Below, piece after piece: positions 51,800 to 58,056 of a stretch of DNA of 58,056 nucleotides (position 1 is the stretch's first letter; each line of letters begins with the position of its first letter). The DNA comes from Longimicrobiales bacterium (GTDB lineage Bacteria > Gemmatimonadota > Gemmatimonadetes > Longimicrobiales > RSA9). The stretch lies in contig DATHUY010000018.1 in NCBI GenBank assembly GCA_035461765.1, positions 1 through 58,056 on the forward strand, read 5' to 3'. The position numbers and the translations under genes were made by a program. The notes beneath the pieces are model-generated. The model did no database searches. It had not been told where the DNA came from and was given only the letters and a program-made list of their open reading frames with translations.

Positions 51800-51863
51800 T
51801 CGCATCTGGACGGTGGGGCACGGGCGAGCAGGCAGGGGCAGGGAAGACTGCTTTTTGACAAAT

Positions 51864-52225
51864 CGGGAAGTGAGTGTGGATCGCGGGCGTCGTGAGGCGC
51901 TCGAGGAAAGTCCGAGCTCCACAGGGCAGGGTGCCGGCTAACGGCCGGGCGTCGCGAGGCGATGGAAAGTGCAGCAGAGAAGAGACCGCCGATGGCCGTC
52001 GCGAGATGGCACAGGCAAGGGTGAAACGGCGGTGTAAGAGACCACCGCGCCCCTGGTAACAGCGGGCGGCAAGGTAAACCCCACCCGGAGCAAGGCCAAG
52101 CAGGGACGAGGCGCTGCCCGCGCCGTCGGAGTCCCGGGTAGGCTGCTGGAGGCGGCGGGCAACCGTCGTCCAAGAGAAATGATCCGCCTCCGCAAGGAGA
52201 CAGAACTCGGCTTATTCACTTCCCG
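51864..52225 (+). ncRNA. rnpB: RNase P RNA (bacterial type A)
   Basis: Catalytic RNA that matures tRNA 5' ends. The ends pair as P1: CGGGAAGTGA (51864-51873) with TCACTTCCCG (52216-52225). Conserved core blocks are present: GAGGAAAGTCCGAGCTCC, ACAGGGCAGGGTGCCGGC, GAAAGTGCAGCAGAGAAG, GGGTGAAACGGCGGTG and the 3' ACAGAACTCGGCTTATTC. It sits between two tRNA-Arg genes. Confidence 0.97.
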
Positions 52226-52262
52226 TATCTTCTGTGTCGTGCAGCATGCGATGCAGAGACAG

Positions 52263-52336
52263 GCGCCCGTAGCTCAGCTGGATAGAGCGCATCCCTCCGG
52301 AGGATGAGGCCAGTGGTTCGAATCCACTCGGGCGCA
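52263..52336 (+). tRNA. tRNA-Arg(CCG), insertion site of the downstream island
   Basis: A 74-nt cloverleaf with acceptor GCGCCCG/CGGGCGC, anticodon loop CTCCGGA (anticodon CCG) and T-arm GGTTCGAATCC. Its last 43 bp (52294-52336) recur exactly at 57151-57193. Confidence 0.97.
52294..52336 (+). repeat. att direct repeat, left copy (in tRNA-Arg)
   Basis: A 43-bp block from the anticodon loop to the discriminator base of tRNA-Arg(CCG), beginning CCTCCGGAGG. It is identical to 57151-57193. The start in the anticodon stem-loop matches a common tyrosine-recombinase crossover position. Confidence 0.85.
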
Positions 52337-52350
52337 CTCTGATCGAACCG

Positions 52351-52383
52351 AACCCGCACCGTCACTTACGGTGCGGGTTTTTT
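52351..52383 (+). terminator. Rho-independent terminator after tRNA-Arg(CCG)
   Basis: A perfect 12-bp stem AACCCGCACCGT/ACGGTGCGGGTT with a 5-nt loop and a run of six Ts reaching 52383. Confidence 0.9.
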
Positions 52384-52384
52384 G

Positions 52385-52549
52385 GTGCGCCCAGCATGTC
52401 TGATGATCTGGGGGTGTGAGTCCCCCCGAGAGTTGGTCGTAACGATCGAAGGGAACCGCAAGGCGCCGAGGGCGACCGAGCTAACGCGCTCCCGGGCGCG
52501 GCTGGCCGACCGGCCGACAACCACCACTTTCGAGAAGGGGAGCGATCGC
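52385..52549 (+). mobile_element. Probable 5' fragment of a group IIC intron
   Basis: Starts with GTGCGCCCAGCATG, a typical group II intron 5' end, directly after a terminator hairpin and T-run, the preferred target of class C introns. GGGGGTGTGAGTCCCCC and GAAGGGAACCGCAAGGCG resemble conserved domain I sequence. No reverse transcriptase frame and no domain V are visible; the fragment runs into the following pseudogene. Confidence 0.45.
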
Positions 52550-52565
52550 ATGACGGGACAAGCCC

Positions 52566-53813
52566 GTGGATCCCGCATGGGGTGCATCCACCCGCGCCGT
52601 GTGGGGCGGCGAGGACGGTGCCGCACCGCACGGCGCGACCGTCCCGCCAGTGTACCACCGCGTCACCTTCGCGTACCAGGACCTCGACGAGTGGCAGGAT
52701 GTCGGCGCCGGCCAGCGCGCCGGCCACATCTATTCGCGCAACACGAACCCGACCACCGTGACGTTCGAGGCGAAGATGTGCGCGCTCGAGGGCGCCGCCG
52801 CGGCGACCAGCTTCGCCACCGTCATGGCGGCCATCAGCAACGCGCTGTTCGCATTGCTCGCACCAGGCCAGCGCGTGGTGTCCATTCGCCGTAGGGCGGA
52901 ACCAACCGCATCTTCATCGAATATCTGCCGAAGTACGGCGTCGATGTCGCCCTCCGCGACACCGGCGACACGGCAGCGATCGAACGCGAGATGGCGCGTG
53001 GCTGCGATCTACTCTACCTCGAGACGCCGACAAACCCGACGCTGAACGTACTCGACATCGCGCGGCTCGCTGCTCGCGCGCGCGCTGTCGGCGCGACGAC
53101 GGTCATCGACAACACGTTTGCCACCCCGATCAACCAGCGCCCGCTCGAGTGGGGCGCCGATCTCGTCGTGTACAGTGCCACGAAGTATCTCGGTGGCCAC
53201 TCCGATGCCATGAGCCGCGTCCTCTGCGGCGACACCGACCGCGCGCACGGTCTTCCAGTTCCGCGAGATCAACGGTCGGTCGCTCGACGCCATGTCCGCG
53301 TTCCTGCTGACGCGCGGGCTGAAGACGCTCGAGCTGCGTCTGCTGCGGCAGAACGACAATGCGCTGCGGATCGGTCGGTACCTCGATGTGCTCCCGCTCG
53401 TCGAGCAGGGTCTTCTACCCGGGGCTCGAGAACCATCCGCAGCACGACGTGGCACGGCGGGAGATGCAGGGGCTTGGCGGTGTGCTCAGCTTCTCGCTGA
53501 AGGGCGGCTTCGATGCGGTGCGTATGCTGCTTGCCACGCTGCGCCTCGCGCACAGCGCGGCGAGCCTCGGCTCCGTGGGTACGCTCGTCGGGCCGCCGAG
53601 CGTGACGAGCCACGTCGAGCTGACACCGGCGCAGCGTGCGGCGGCGGGCATTCCGGAGTCGCTTGTGCGCTACGCGGTCGCATCGAGAGCGCGCCCGACC
53701 TCATCGCCGACTTCGAGCACGCGCTGAGCGCAGCGCACACACACCTGCTTACCGCGCAAGGCCGGCACGTGGAGGCGGAGCCGATGATGCAGGAGTCGGG
53801 CTCCGAGCAGTAA
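52566..53813 (+). pseudogene. Trans-sulfuration PLP enzyme (cystathionine gamma-synthase/lyase family), frameshifted
   Basis: Readable pieces of one PLP-dependent Cys/Met metabolism enzyme lie in changing frames. The pieces in order: WGASTRAVWGGEDGA and HIYSRNTNPTTVTFEAKM; then ETPTNPTLNVLDIARLA and the PLP-Lys motif VVYSATKYLGGHSD; then GRSLDAMSAFLLTRGLKTLE; then YPGLENHPQHDVARREMQGL through GPPSVTSHVELT; then APDLIADFEHALSA to a TAA at 53811. At least four frameshifts interrupt it, so it is almost surely inactive unless the sequence has errors here. The start is uncertain (GTG 52566 or ATG 52550). An adjacent intron fragment suggests accumulated damage. Confidence 0.8.
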
Positions 53814-54204
53814 GGGCGTGCGGCGTAGACACCGCCCGCATCCGGCAGGCAACCGGTGAGCAACGCCTGAACGGTGGCCTCGGTGCCGCAGAGCTCTACG
53901 GCCGCGAACGTGATGCGCATCGCAGGTACCCTCCGCAGACTCGGCCGACACGCACCCCATGAACAAGTCGAGGCCAGGCATGGCCCCCCATCCGCGCGTT
54001 TTGCGTTTCATGCGGTGGAGGCGGACGTCCGGTCCCGCGTTTCGCCTCTGCGGTGAGCGGCGGGCTGTCGGTCCCTCGCCGGTCAGTGATCGAGGACGCA
54101 GCCCACCCTCACTGGCAAGCGCGTGAGCTCAGCACGCCCACGAATTTGGGCGCGGCAATGTGCGCCCGTCCAGCGGGCATCCCAATCCCGAGGAGGTGTA
54201 TTCG
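53814..54204. other. Island spacer without a recognisable gene
   Basis: About 390 bp between the pseudogene and the two-gene unit. No frame on either strand resembles a known protein. A small hairpin CGCCCA/TGGGCG lies at 54135-54152 and an AGGAGGT ribosome-binding site near the right end serves the next gene. Confidence 0.5.
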
Positions 54205-54816
54205 ATGGAACCGATCTCTGTTACCGGCGAGGTCGTTGACTCCGCCACTCGGCAAGGCATTCCCGGGCTTCGAGTCGAAGCATGGGAGAAAGACGGTGCG
54301 CCCAGCGCGTTGGTGGGGAACGCAACCACTGATCGCGTGGGTCGCTTCGTGATCAATGTCGAGGAAGCGCAACTAGCGGCACGGCGAGCGGCGCTGTTCT
54401 TCAGGATCTTGCGAGGCGCCGAGCTAATCACGAGTACAGAGGACACGGTCGTCTGGACTCCAGGATCGTCCACCGAGCCAGTGCGCGTGGAAGTAACCCT
54501 CAATCCGCAGCCCGAACCACCCTCGTGGACGACTCTGCATGTGAATTCATTCGACGAGCTGATTGCGCATGAACAGGAGATCCTGGGCAGAATTGCCGCA
54601 ACGCCCAACGGAGGTAAGCTGTTCCTGACACACCCATTCATGCTCCTCGCCGACCTCGGCGTCGAGTTATCGAAACGGGCGGAGCGCGAGCTCATCGCTC
54701 ATGAGCCGGTCCTCGGCGCCCTCTCCCCTGTCTCATACAACCATCTGAAGGCAAGCACCCGGCCGCAAAGTGTGAAGGTCAACCTCCGCGGCCTTTTCCA
54801 GAGGAGGGCGCAGTGA
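54205..54816 (+). CDS. Transthyretin-like-domain protein of unknown function (island cargo)
   Basis: A 203-aa protein from ATG 54205 with a perfect AGGAGGT 7 nt upstream. The first 95 residues form a prealbumin/carboxypeptidase-regulatory-like sandwich: ISVTGEVVDSATRQGIPGLR and TTDRVGRFVINVEE. The second half is helical: FDELIAHEQEILGRIAAT, then FLTHPFMLLADLGVELSKRA. No signal peptide. It overlaps the next gene by 4 nt and clearly works with it. Base composition differs from the flanking chromosome. Function unknown. Confidence 0.75.
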   Translation: MEPISVTGEVVDSATRQGIPGLRVEAWEKDGAPSALVGNATTDRVGRFVINVEEAQLAARRAALFFRILRGAELITSTEDTVVWTPGSSTEPVRVEVTLNPQPEPPSWTTLHVNSFDELIAHEQEILGRIAATPNGGKLFLTHPFMLLADLGVELSKRAERELIAHEPVLGALSPVSYNHLKASTRPQSVKVNLRGLFQRRAQ

Positions 54817-56780
54817 GTCTGACAGCCGGTTTCGACCTGGTGATCGAACTATCGAACGAGGCCGTTCTGAACCTCGTCAAACGCAACATGCAAATTCCCG
54901 GCGCCGTCGCCAATCCGCCTTTTGAGATTGCCGTCCCATTCGCGCAGCCCGCGCAAGGACAAGCATGGCTCATCGTGGACGACATCACACTCGAGCTGAA
55001 GGACAACGATGAACTGGTGTTCACGCTGCCGTTCAGTTGTGGTGCAGTCGAACTGCAAACCCCGATTCCGCTGGACGTCACGGGACTCCATGGAACGATC
55101 ACGCTGACGATGTCTGCCCAGGGAGTGCTCATTTCCAAAGGGGGTAGCTCGTTCACATTCGGTGTCAATTGGGACGACGCCGTTTCAAATATCGCCATAA
55201 ATCAGCTCGCAGCTGCGCTGGCCGGGACACCAATCGACGCCGCCACGTTCCAGAGCCTGGCACAACAAGCCCTCGCCGACTTCGTCAACGGGCTGCCTGC
55301 CATCACGACGTCCATCGAGTTCCAGATCGTGCCTGCCCAGGACGGCGCGTTCGGCAACAACCTGCAGTTCGCTGCAGCGGAGGTTCACTGCATCGGCAAT
55401 GCGGACCCCGCCAAACAGGCGTTGGGTCTGTTCGGAACACTGGTCGCCGCCAATCAGGGCAACGGCGATCACACGTTGAAAACGGAGACCGCCATTCAGC
55501 CGGGTCGGGAGCTCGCCATCAGCATGTCGCCGGGCGCGTTCCGCCGGATCATCTTTTGTCCCGCGCTAGCGGCATCGTTGGGGACAAAACTGCCGAGCAC
55601 TTGTGGGAATACACCCGTGCACCGGAATGGCCTCGATATCACAAAAATCGAGGAGTCCTTCCACCACAACGGGATCAAGATCAGCATGACCGCCAAGCGG
55701 TCAGGGGTGTGCTACGAAGCCAGGGGTGACGTATCCGGCACGCTCACGTTTTCGATCGCAAACAATGCGCTGGTGCCGGATTTGGACGTCGGAAAACCCG
55801 ATGTGACCGTCGACATTCCGTGGTACTGCAAGATCGCAGCTGCCGTTGTAGGCGGCGTATGGGGATTGGTCATCGCGCAGGTACTCGATGAAGTGCTGGA
55901 TGTCATTCTCGATTTCTTCGCGCCGGACGTGCCCGGAGTGTCTGTGCCGACGGTCGCACTCGCCGGGTTTCCCGGTGCGGTATTCACGGATGTGCAAGTC
56001 TCCCCGGAGGGGCTGACGCTGCAAGCCGATCTTCCGATCATACTGTCGAAGAATAAGAGTACGCTCAAATTGAGCGGAGCTGTTACCGTTATCAACATCG
56101 AAACCTTGAGTACCGGCACGTATAAGGTCGAGGAGGGCTGCCTCGCGGGCGAATATCCGTGGACAGAGCAGTTGCTCCATCTGTCGGCTGGGTACGTCGC
56201 AACTCCGACCCTGTTGTGCAGGCCAATCGAGTACACGTGGTCGATTGAAAATATTCAGCTGCCTTCAGGCCACGGCCAGGTCACGGTGCCCGTCGAAGCC
56301 ACCCATCCTTTCCCTCTGACGGTCGGCACGACGGTAACGGCTGACGTCGACGTCGAGTATACGATCTCGGCGGCATCCATTGTGTTGAAAAATGCTCCGA
56401 GCCAGGGCAGCTATGCGGTGAAGCTTGGCATGCGCGCCAAAGACGCGAAAGGCACGGTTCTTCAGACGAGCCAGCATGTATTCTTCGCAGGACATGCAGT
56501 GCAAATCGAGGGGTTCGCCGGGAAACTGGCATACTGCTCCGCGGAGCAGTTCCGTAAGAAGGTCGTTCCCACCAAGTGGCCAGACTTCGAGGAGCCGAGT
56601 CCGAAGGACCTCATCGTGATCACGCTCCTACACTCGAGTCTGGAGCATCCCGACTCGGATCAGCTGGTCGCCGCGACCGAGCTGACCTACGGTCAACGTT
56701 ATCAGAAGGCCATCAACCTACATCGAGCAGGTCTGTTGGGTTCTCGCTCCCGTCTCGGTGCCACCGCCCAAGGTGCTTAG
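54813..56780 (+). CDS. Large beta-rich protein of unknown function, possibly TULIP-like (island cargo)
   Basis: A 655-aa protein from GTG 54813, coupled to the upstream gene. There is no signal peptide. It opens with FDLVIELSNEAVLNLVKRNM, a strand-plus-helix pattern seen in TULIP/P47-type lipid-binding folds. Similar alternating strands recur around residues 300-345, with a hydrophobic helix (AAAVVGGVWGLVIAQVLDEV) after them and then VSVPTVALAGFPGAVFTDVQ. The C-terminal third is again beta-sandwich, ending in a helical LVAATELTYGQRYQKAINLH. At least six Cys are scattered. Assignment to TULIP is tentative; no catalytic motif is visible. Confidence 0.65.
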   Translation: MSLTAGFDLVIELSNEAVLNLVKRNMQIPGAVANPPFEIAVPFAQPAQGQAWLIVDDITLELKDNDELVFTLPFSCGAVELQTPIPLDVTGLHGTITLTMSAQGVLISKGGSSFTFGVNWDDAVSNIAINQLAAALAGTPIDAATFQSLAQQALADFVNGLPAITTSIEFQIVPAQDGAFGNNLQFAAAEVHCIGNADPAKQALGLFGTLVAANQGNGDHTLKTETAIQPGRELAISMSPGAFRRIIFCPALAASLGTKLPSTCGNTPVHRNGLDITKIEESFHHNGIKISMTAKRSGVCYEARGDVSGTLTFSIANNALVPDLDVGKPDVTVDIPWYCKIAAAVVGGVWGLVIAQVLDEVLDVILDFFAPDVPGVSVPTVALAGFPGAVFTDVQVSPEGLTLQADLPIILSKNKSTLKLSGAVTVINIETLSTGTYKVEEGCLAGEYPWTEQLLHLSAGYVATPTLLCRPIEYTWSIENIQLPSGHGQVTVPVEATHPFPLTVGTTVTADVDVEYTISAASIVLKNAPSQGSYAVKLGMRAKDAKGTVLQTSQHVFFAGHAVQIEGFAGKLAYCSAEQFRKKVVPTKWPDFEEPSPKDLIVITLLHSSLEHPDSDQLVAATELTYGQRYQKAINLHRAGLLGSRSRLGATAQGA

Positions 56781-57150
56781 CCGTTGTGGAGTAAAGCTGC
56801 GGCCAGCCCGACTCGTGAGAAACGAGCAGGTTGGCACGTTTACCGTACCCGAAGGGCCGAGCACCGTCCGTGAGGCCGGGCGGTCGCGCCCATGACCATA
56901 GGTGCATCGCACGATGCATATCATTCGCGGGAGGGTCATTCGCTCTGAACCGTCTGGCGCCGCGGCGGTGTCAACGATCCCGGCGAAGAAGTCGAAACCG
57001 GTGGAGGGTGGTGGCGCGGTACCAGGCGATCCGCCAGTGACAAACTGAACAACACACCGACCCGTCGCAGGGGCGCGCCAGCCGGGCGCCGAGGACGAGA
57101 AAACCGCGTAGTTCAGCGGGTGTCGGTGCAGGTCGGCCCGGAGGGTGAAG
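56781..57150. other. Right-end island spacer
   Basis: 370 bp without a convincing gene on either strand. It contains a perfect TGCATCG/CGATGCA inverted repeat (56903-56918, 2-nt spacer) and a CTCGT/ACGAG hairpin near 56809. Either could be a leftover recombination or regulatory site. Confidence 0.4.
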
Positions 57151-57193
57151 CCTCCGGAGGATGAGGCCAGTGGTTCGAATCCACTCGGGCGCA
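57151..57193 (+). repeat. att direct repeat, right copy (tRNA-Arg 3' remnant)
   Basis: Exact 43-bp copy of 52294-52336 with no acceptor 5' half or D-arm before it, so it is not a functional tRNA. It is followed by a strong terminator that probably belonged to the tRNA before integration. Confidence 0.85.
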
Positions 57194-57199
57194 TGATGT

Positions 57200-57246
57200 G
57201 AAAGAAGGGGGTTTAGGCGACGTCGTCGTCTGAACCCCCTTCTTTC
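57200..57246. terminator. Strong hairpin terminator right of the island
   Basis: Arms GAAAGAAGGGGGTTTAG (57200-57216) and CTGAACCCCCTTCTTTC (57230-57246) pair with one G-T-type mismatch. The pyrimidine-rich arm ends TTCTTTC, so it could serve either strand. Confidence 0.65.
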
Positions 57247-57343: not shown

Positions 57344-58056
57344 TCACCGTGCGGTGGGTCCGCCGTCCTCGCCGGCTGAGCTCGTTAGCCGGGTCAGGCC
57401 TGTGCCGTCATCGTTCATGATAAAGATCTCGGTGTCGCCGCCGGTCGACGGCCGAAAGGACATGAAGATGATCTGGCCGCTCTGCGTCCAGGACGGTGCC
57501 CGGCTGCACCACTCGTTGTTCGCGTCCGCCGGATCCTTCGGTGTCAGGTTCACCGGATCACTGCCATCCACGTTCATCACGAACACAGAGCAGTAGCCCT
57601 CCTCGAAGCTCATGTAGGCGATCTTCTGCCCATTCGGCGACCACGCGGCCATCTGTGCGAATCTCGCGGGCACATCGGTGAGTTGAACCGTCTCATCGAA
57701 TCGGAGGTCGGTCATCCAGACGTTACTGCCGCGCCGGAACGTCAGTCGGTGACCGTCCGGCGACCACTCCGGCCAGGTATCCGCCACGGTGTTGCTCGTC
57801 ACCTGCGTGAGTTCACCGCTCTTCAGGTCGAGGATGTAGATCTCGGTGTCGCCGTCGGCATCGCCGTGGAAGGCAATACGCTGTCCGTTAGGTGAGAAGC
57901 GTGCCCAGTCCTCGGATGCGTCGGTGGTCTCCGTCAGATTGATGGGATCGCCGCCGGCGGTGCTCACCAGGTAGATGTCGCTCGGACCGGTCCCGACGCG
58001 CGACGTATAGACCACCCACTTCCCGTTGTTCGAGATGTCGGGGTAGTAGTCGAGCG
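57344..58056 (-). CDS. TolB-like beta-propeller protein (partial, N-terminus outside the window)
   Basis: The frame is open to the window edge, so the start is missing; 237 codons are present. At least four PD40/TolB-type blades are visible with recurrent WSPDG-type motifs: WARFSPNGQRIAFHGDADGD, WPEWSPDGHRLTFRRG, AAWSPNGQKIAYMSF and PSWTQSGQIIFMSF, each followed by an IYILD- or VFVMN-like strand. These propellers are usually periplasmic or surface-exposed interaction modules. It reads towards the island. Confidence 0.8.
   Translation of the reverse strand, partial: LDYYPDISNNGKWVVYTSRVGTGPSDIYLVSTAGGDPINLTETTDASEDWARFSPNGQRIAFHGDADGDTEIYILDLKSGELTQVTSNTVADTWPEWSPDGHRLTFRRGSNVWMTDLRFDETVQLTDVPARFAQMAAWSPNGQKIAYMSFEEGYCSVFVMNVDGSDPVNLTPKDPADANNEWCSRAPSWTQSGQIIFMSFRPSTGGDTEIFIMNDDGTGLTRLTSSAGEDGGPTAR

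Follow-up and report, generated by a model that had tools for sequence, protein, structure and literature searches.

Stacks of islands at a single RNA gene have been described in several bacterial groups. Cis-mobilizable elements (CIMEs) lack integration genes and are found in tandem with other elements, through accretion at tRNA genes, as outlined in PMC5704250. In Dehalococcoides, islands lie in tandem at ssrA between repeats of the 3' end of the RNA gene, and 15 of 31 are summarized as being without an integration module (PMC3146451). The additive flexible island of the Methylophilaceae has recurring 20-bp tRNA-Lys ends and sizes from 330 bp to 42 kb according to PMC10872708, which also describes tycheposons, tRNA-anchored cargo elements with a tyrosine recombinase. 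An array of a similar kind is described here for Longimicrobiales bacterium, a member of the phylum Gemmatimonadota (assembly GCA_035461765.1, 4.7 Mb, 99.3% complete). The window, meaning the whole stretch of 58,056 nucleotides that was analysed (contig DATHUY010000018.1), holds near its right end an interval, 52294-57193, that lies between exact copies of the 3' half of a tRNA-Arg(CCG) gene. With a probability of roughly 0.87, this interval is an integrase-less, site-specifically inserted island of the CIME type, the tRNA-proximal member of a tandem array at a putative hot spot, tRNA-Arg(CCG), that is used across the class. Below, G000 is the source genome, other G numbers are relatives, C18 is the contig of the window, and C80, C34, and C30 are further contigs of G000.

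The array works like the known tandem integrase-less islands: the kind of genomic island is familiar, the bacterial group that carries it little studied. With the CIMEs of PMC5704250 it shares integrase-less units between attachment sites and stacking by repeated insertion at one tRNA. It differs in phylum, in the target tRNA, and in having bounded units of 1.1-14.7 kb, and any mobility of these is putative. The Dehalococcoides islands, as presented in PMC3146451, are likewise tandem, with RNA-gene 3'-end repeats and conserved sequence beside the repeat, whereas they involve CcrB-related serine recombinases and tmRNA in place of tyrosine integrases (PF00589) and a tRNA anticodon loop. Recurring tRNA-end repeats with variable content and size are shared with the Methylophilaceae island, which uses another tRNA in another phylum; the excerpted text of PMC10872708 mentions neither arms nor terminators. 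For tycheposons the likeness consists of tRNA anchoring and a tyrosine recombinase, and is one of description only, no tycheposon-specific gene having been searched for. A literature search covering titles and abstract openings returned no report of such arrays in Gemmatimonadota. The locus offers a concrete, checkable map of accessory-gene stacking in a phylum with few cultured species, at one hot spot and one crossover region. The arms are recognizable, empty sites are at hand for comparison, and most of the bounded units have no integrase.

All 43 nucleotides of 52294-52336 recur at 57151-57193, as the earlier note on this DNA had claimed, and the repeat does end at the discriminator base, the A at 52336. 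The start that the note placed in the anticodon loop is correct to within one base: ARAGORN puts the anticodon at position 35 (52297-52299) and the seven-base loop spans 52295-52301, one base after 52294. The exact 43-nucleotide match occurs three times in the 4.7-Mb genome, the third copy being on contig C80, and this is not chance. A regenerated tRNA at one end and a displaced 3' fragment at the other are used to recognize tRNA-targeted islands, and both are present. Such islands are also usually expected to encode an integrase. Here no PF00589 protein lies inside, in agreement with the note's statement that the island has no recombinase and with the definition of CIMEs, in both cases for tyrosine integrases, serine recombinases being outside the search. 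The degenerate pattern for the tRNA-Arg(CCG) 3' half matches three times in G000 and twice in its genus mate G001, versus one and no matches for a control pattern built on tRNA-Arg(ACG). Across 394 genomes the control was usable in these two only, as elsewhere it also catches CCG genes and others, so it does not settle how specific the putative hot spot is to CCG relative to other tRNAs.

The island is not solitary. The end of C80 and the right end of the window share 141 identical bases in opposite orientation, the C80 end is found in no other contig among the 18 matches listed (40 of 263 candidates scored), and an open reading frame (ORF) of 314 amino acids stays open across the join. Together, the overlap and the third repeat copy make the island unit 1 of a tandem array, which reads: tRNA, unit 1 (4,857 bp), copy 2, unit 2 (3,797 bp), copy 3, unit 3 (about 3,331 bp), and a decayed copy with a terminator resembling the others. 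It is the most distant copy that has decayed. The cargo of unit 2 is a beta-propeller gene and a BTAD/TPR regulator, and that of unit 3 is a NamZ-type exo-muramidase and an aldo/keto reductase. The terminator at 57200 had been taken as the point at which tRNA and chromosome were joined before insertion. This did not hold up: 57200-57246 belongs to unit 2 and so gives no mark of where the chromosome resumes.

The same tRNA end recurs among the relatives. In the 394 genomes of the class Gemmatimonadetes scanned, the CCG pattern matched in 297, with at least two matches in 28, most but not all of which had their loci inspected. Some double matches are ordinary second tRNA genes, for example in G315 and G197, where the two sequences differ. 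In 17 genomes of six families, however, there are 24 truncated copies that have 170 bp or more of sequence on their upstream side. Their upstream flanks are unrelated, and their similarity to the tRNA stops upstream at CCTCCGG or up to about 6 bases 5' of it, at the edge of the anticodon loop. The pattern demands sequence from CCTCCGG on, so that copies shifted in the 3' direction escape it; it shows that the copies reach no further in the 5' direction, and it does not show that none begins further 3'. Among the loci fetched, 15 units of relatives are bounded on one contig, with sizes of 1.1-14.7 kb.

Judged by alignment, empty sites exist for two filled relatives. The DNA after the displaced copy in G354 aligns with that directly after the intact tRNA of its genus mate G343 (73% over 1,419 positions), and the DNA after the last copy in G063, from 466 bp in, aligns with that after the tRNA of its genus mate G094 (77% over 997 positions). 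In a third pair, G074 and G065, the tRNA of G065 lies 0.5-1.1 kb off the shared flank. The displaced copy in G354 has the T arm of its own genus, with an identical 3' half in G063, G094, G233, G278, G343, and G356, and the tRNA gene has a 3' half that is seen outside the genus, for example in the genera of G167 and G367. It appears from these sequences that an incoming element brought a foreign tRNA end and that the native one was shifted 1,741 bp downstream. Site-specific integration that preserves the tRNA, the central claim of the earlier note, is thus strongly supported by truncated copies in 17 genomes, integrases at four sites, and two empty sites.

Those integrases lie in G015, G069, G183, and G290, where the edge of an integrase domain is 208-235 bp from the crossover of the tRNA or its copy and the gene reads toward it. 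They form two families: the first three are mutually 51-75% identical, and that of G290 shares 44% identity with an integrase of G022, which is found at a distance of 15 kb from the tRNA there. PF00589 searches covered the source genome, 14 relatives, and 19 genomes with at least two pattern matches. The whole source genome has three such proteins, none of them in the window or on C80: an integron integrase on C30 and two that resemble housekeeping Xer by context. The first (L074:464-1465; TIGR02249, 433 bits) is near its contig end. By sequence resemblance, an integron-integrase-like protein stands beside the same ATPase gene in G001, and another is found in G005.

Beside the repeats, a subset of the ends carries a pair of short arms. 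Scored over 170 bp, the motif T[GAC][ACT]CA-N7-T[GAC][ACT]CA stands in 7 of 24 right ends, compared with 8 of 3,234 background windows on the same strand; over 260 bp, it stands in 9 of 60 left ends. As it was set after both ends had been read, and as the units include related ones, the contrast with background is descriptive. A score for repeats with a period of 11 to 13 was dropped in favour of the motif count because it separates true arms poorly, 7.5% of background windows already scoring 9 of 11 matches. Arms are 100-123 bp from the crossover at right ends and 16-76 bp past the tRNA end at left ends. At unit 1 the core repeats are exact and the right arm is degenerate. The AAAACCGCG motif between this arm and the crossover is also present in G051 (-51) and G029 (-50), with one-base variants in G017 (-51) and G001 (-50). 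The last 48 bp before the crossover of unit 1 differ from those on contig C309 of G001 at about 5 positions (91% over 57 positions, 9 of them tRNA), and the two share no related cargo at an E-value of 1e-15 among the matches listed. Other right ends resemble each other as well: G167 and G354 (86% over 135 positions) and G017 and G029 (91% over 89). An internal stretch of unit 3 is 86% like 57032-57082 of the window and is read as a probable arm whose tRNA copy is gone. In G047, the tRNA end and a copy on another contig share 17 letters, and the two contigs are not shown to be adjacent.

Terminators form part of the same picture. A terminator-like fold (z < -2) follows 16 of 25 truncated copies, and the same holds for 19 of the 36 sites classed as intact tRNA. 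In many lineages, though not in all of them, a terminator thus moves together with the tRNA end. Hairpins like that of unit 1 also follow the tRNA of G005 and stand at decayed copies. DNA similarity between the source genome and G005, a member of the same family, runs through RNase P RNA and the tRNA and ends at 52386, directly past the terminator.

The following course of events would account for these features. An ancestral element would have carried an attachment site consisting of the tRNA-Arg(CCG) 3' half and, in many lineages, a terminator, with integrase-arm repeats on either side. A tyrosine integrase of the kinds present in relatives may have recombined the circular element with the chromosomal tRNA at the anticodon loop. 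The incoming copy would have rebuilt the tRNA and given it its terminator, and the older 3' half would have moved to the far side; the 3' part of the present tRNA was thus probably supplied by unit 1. Repeated insertion could then have piled up units 1, 2, and 3, and perhaps more. Since each insertion would take place at the intact tRNA, the newest unit should be the one nearest to it, which fits the decay of distant copies. With their arms missing or degenerate and no fitting integrase in the genome, the units of the source genome seem to be stranded. We infer, in sum, that integrases of the relatives' types built the source array in this order and that its units can no longer move by themselves.

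Several points weigh against this account. The source genome has no fitting tyrosine integrase by the PF00589 search, strict arms are missing from 17 of the 24 right ends, and a motif scan sees no arm at the left end of unit 1 or at the right end of copy 3. The shared left boundary of the copies is partly a product of the search, as the pattern requires CCTCCGG, and one G069 copy begins one base later. Nearly all assemblies are drafts, and the join of C18 and C80 is based on a 141-bp overlap. At the window locus no empty site was found: in the downstream sequences compared, no tRNA-Arg(CCG) stands directly before the 57200 terminator, the allele that the earlier note had proposed as the empty state. 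With further units beyond unit 1, that allele would mark only the state before unit 1. Also, two of the 15 bounded units, those of G033 and G025, have a near-complete tRNA gene at their far end and may have arisen by duplication of the tRNA. These second tRNA-Arg(CCG) genes (G033:C25 and G025:C24) lie 1.6-1.9 kb further downstream than the first ones; in G033 the terminator is almost identical too, and in G025 that terminator is lacking. Either the tRNA was duplicated or an element was integrated at a crossover situated further 5'.

Why the units lack integrases can be explained in more than one way. The explanation that stands somewhat better than even is independent decay, in which each unit arrived complete with its integrase and later lost it, and its left arm, by deletion. 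For example, integrase-bearing and integrase-less units lie side by side in G069, the first cargo gene of unit 1 is frameshifted, and PMC5704250 describes this route to CIMEs. The difficulty lies with G074, whose one-gene unit of about a kilobase has both arms and would demand precise deletions.

Possible, and on balance doubtful, is that the units are cassettes or satellites that never had an integrase. Their whole content would be one or a few genes with a terminator and attachment sites, and integrases of other elements would move them. Of the 15 bounded units seen in relatives, 13 have no PF00589 protein, and neither do the two fully bounded units of the source array. Some units are very small, such as those of G074 (1,094 bp, one ORF of 146 amino acids) and G063 (1,343 bp), and arms stand at both ends of integrase-less units in G029 (14.7 kb, with 17 identical letters at the two ends), G167 (8.4 kb), and G074. 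However, a larger island whose integrase had been deleted would look the same, no helper was identified, and unit 1 itself shows no left arm and a degenerate right arm. The earlier note had left the choice between a satellite mobilized in trans and a deletion remnant. In G000, a stranded or decayed unit fits better because no left arm is seen, the right arm is degenerate, the first gene is frameshifted, and there is no matching integrase; in relatives, mobilization in trans is still live because some integrase-less units keep both arms. Should the small units turn out to be mobile, an attachment site of about 200-250 bp would be all the mobility module that they have, and they would count as minimal hitch-hikers.

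One could extend this to a class-wide, integron-like cassette platform at tRNA-Arg(CCG), with small, mostly integrase-less units and integrases acting in trans, also from other genera, which seems rather unlikely. It is just as speculative that each unit of such a platform would comprise a tRNA 3' end, a terminator of its own, two arms, and a single gene or a few, the newest unit standing by the tRNA and older ones decaying with distance.

An origin of the array from the C30 integron integrase, for which the tRNA 3' end would be an atypical attachment site, is very improbable: this integrase is the sole PF00589 protein of the source genome besides the two Xer-like ones and has similar proteins in G001 and G005, yet its G001 counterpart keeps the same ATPase neighbour away from the array, the arm repeats and the boundary at the anticodon loop agree with ordinary tRNA integrases, such as relatives have at the site, and the unit boundaries are tRNA 3' ends, which argues against attC sites (attC being outside the search). 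That homologous or illegitimate recombination duplicated a tRNA fragment in tandem, without any integration, would explain the second tRNAs of G033 and G025 and is hardly credible for the array in view of the empty sites, the swapped T arm of G354, the differing terminators after copies, the unrelated sequence on either side, and the integrases at the same site.

The features of the tRNA-proximal island and its surroundings are collected in Table 1.

Table 1. Features at the right end of the window (positions on the window; crossover offsets in bp)
Feature	Position	Strand	Basis or remark
RNase P RNA, class A	51863..52230	+	RF00010, 275 bits; upstream neighbour of the integration site
tRNA-Arg(CCG), integration target	52263..52336	+	ARAGORN (52263-52337) and RF00005
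Attachment (att) repeat copy 1, 43 nt, tRNA 3' half	52294..52336	+	Exact repeat
Terminator adjoining tRNA 3' end	52351..52383	+	Hairpin and T run; 62 nt after tRNA, fold z = -5.2
Cys/Met-metabolism pyridoxal phosphate (PLP)-enzyme pseudogene, frameshifted	52566..53810	+	PF01053 in four overlapping reading-frame pieces
ORF, 203 aa (ATG 54205; 218 aa from GTG 54160)	54205..54816	+	Weak CarboxypepD_reg, 20.9 bits, below Pfam cut-off
ORF, 655 aa	54813..56780	+	No Pfam match
Degenerate integrase-arm-like pair TGACA-N7-CAACA	57038..57054	+	-113 from crossover; one base off motif
AAAACCGCG motif	57100..57108	+	-51 from crossover
att repeat copy 2, unit 1 right boundary and unit 2 left boundary	57151..57193	+	Exact repeat
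Unit 2 terminator, adjoining att copy 2	57200..57246	+	Inverted repeat I3; 62 nt, fold z = -9.1
Beta-propeller gene (TolB-like by eye), unit 2 cargo	57344..58056	-	314 aa once joined with C80

The content of unit 1 is mixed in composition. The view that the enclosed DNA differs in style from the chromosome is right for 54160-56780, with a guanine-plus-cytosine content of 0.594 compared to 0.672 for 1-51000 (lowest equal-length window there 0.644, in 200-base steps). It is wrong for 52337-54159 (0.680) and 56781-57150 (0.657), which are both chromosome-like. The 655-amino-acid protein has one weak match among 394 other Gemmatimonadota genomes, the remaining 393 being without a match, and none among plasmids, phages, or PDB sequences. 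A single-sequence structure model had a mean predicted local distance difference test (pLDDT) score of 31 and was unusable, so no fold search was made. By eye, the protein recalls lipid-binding (TULIP) proteins, a likeness that no analysis supports.

The main ORFs of unit 1 matched no transfer families in Pfam, PHROGs, or NCBIfam, where no search was aimed at relaxases or the origin of transfer (oriT). PHROGs gave a single match (E = 0.43) for the two intact ORFs, packaging signals being outside the search. A viral origin was set aside: a 38-mer of the att repeat is present in no viral contig, nor did a comparison with viral contigs yield a confirmed relative of the integrases of G015 and G069. 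A leader-like stretch at 52385-52560, between the terminator and the frameshifted Cys/Met gene, has no Rfam match. A riboswitch or other RNA at this end was likewise dropped, since nothing beyond tRNAs and RNase P passed Rfam cut-offs and a loose E-value added a tRNA fragment and two chance-level matches.

RNase P RNA (RF00010) was detected in 27 of 31 genomes searched. When the array ORFs were compared with other downstream stretches (E-value 1e-15), only the BTAD/TPR regulator matched, at 32-43% to G004 and G029, among the matches listed. In the f2 family, a conserved region runs downstream from the tRNA in at least 5 of 8 genomes, and G018 has part of it, again among the matches listed. A decayed tRNA-Arg 3' end of about 28 nucleotides with a terminator lies at C34:10085-10150, on a contig unlinked to the array, and is either a relic or the distal end of the array; it adjoins a rhomboid-like gene (by eye). 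The cargo of the 2.1-kb unit of G013 (L068 2019-2675) looks by eye like an RloB-type defence protein, and the G015 locus (L128) has genes that by eye are HigA/HigB-like.

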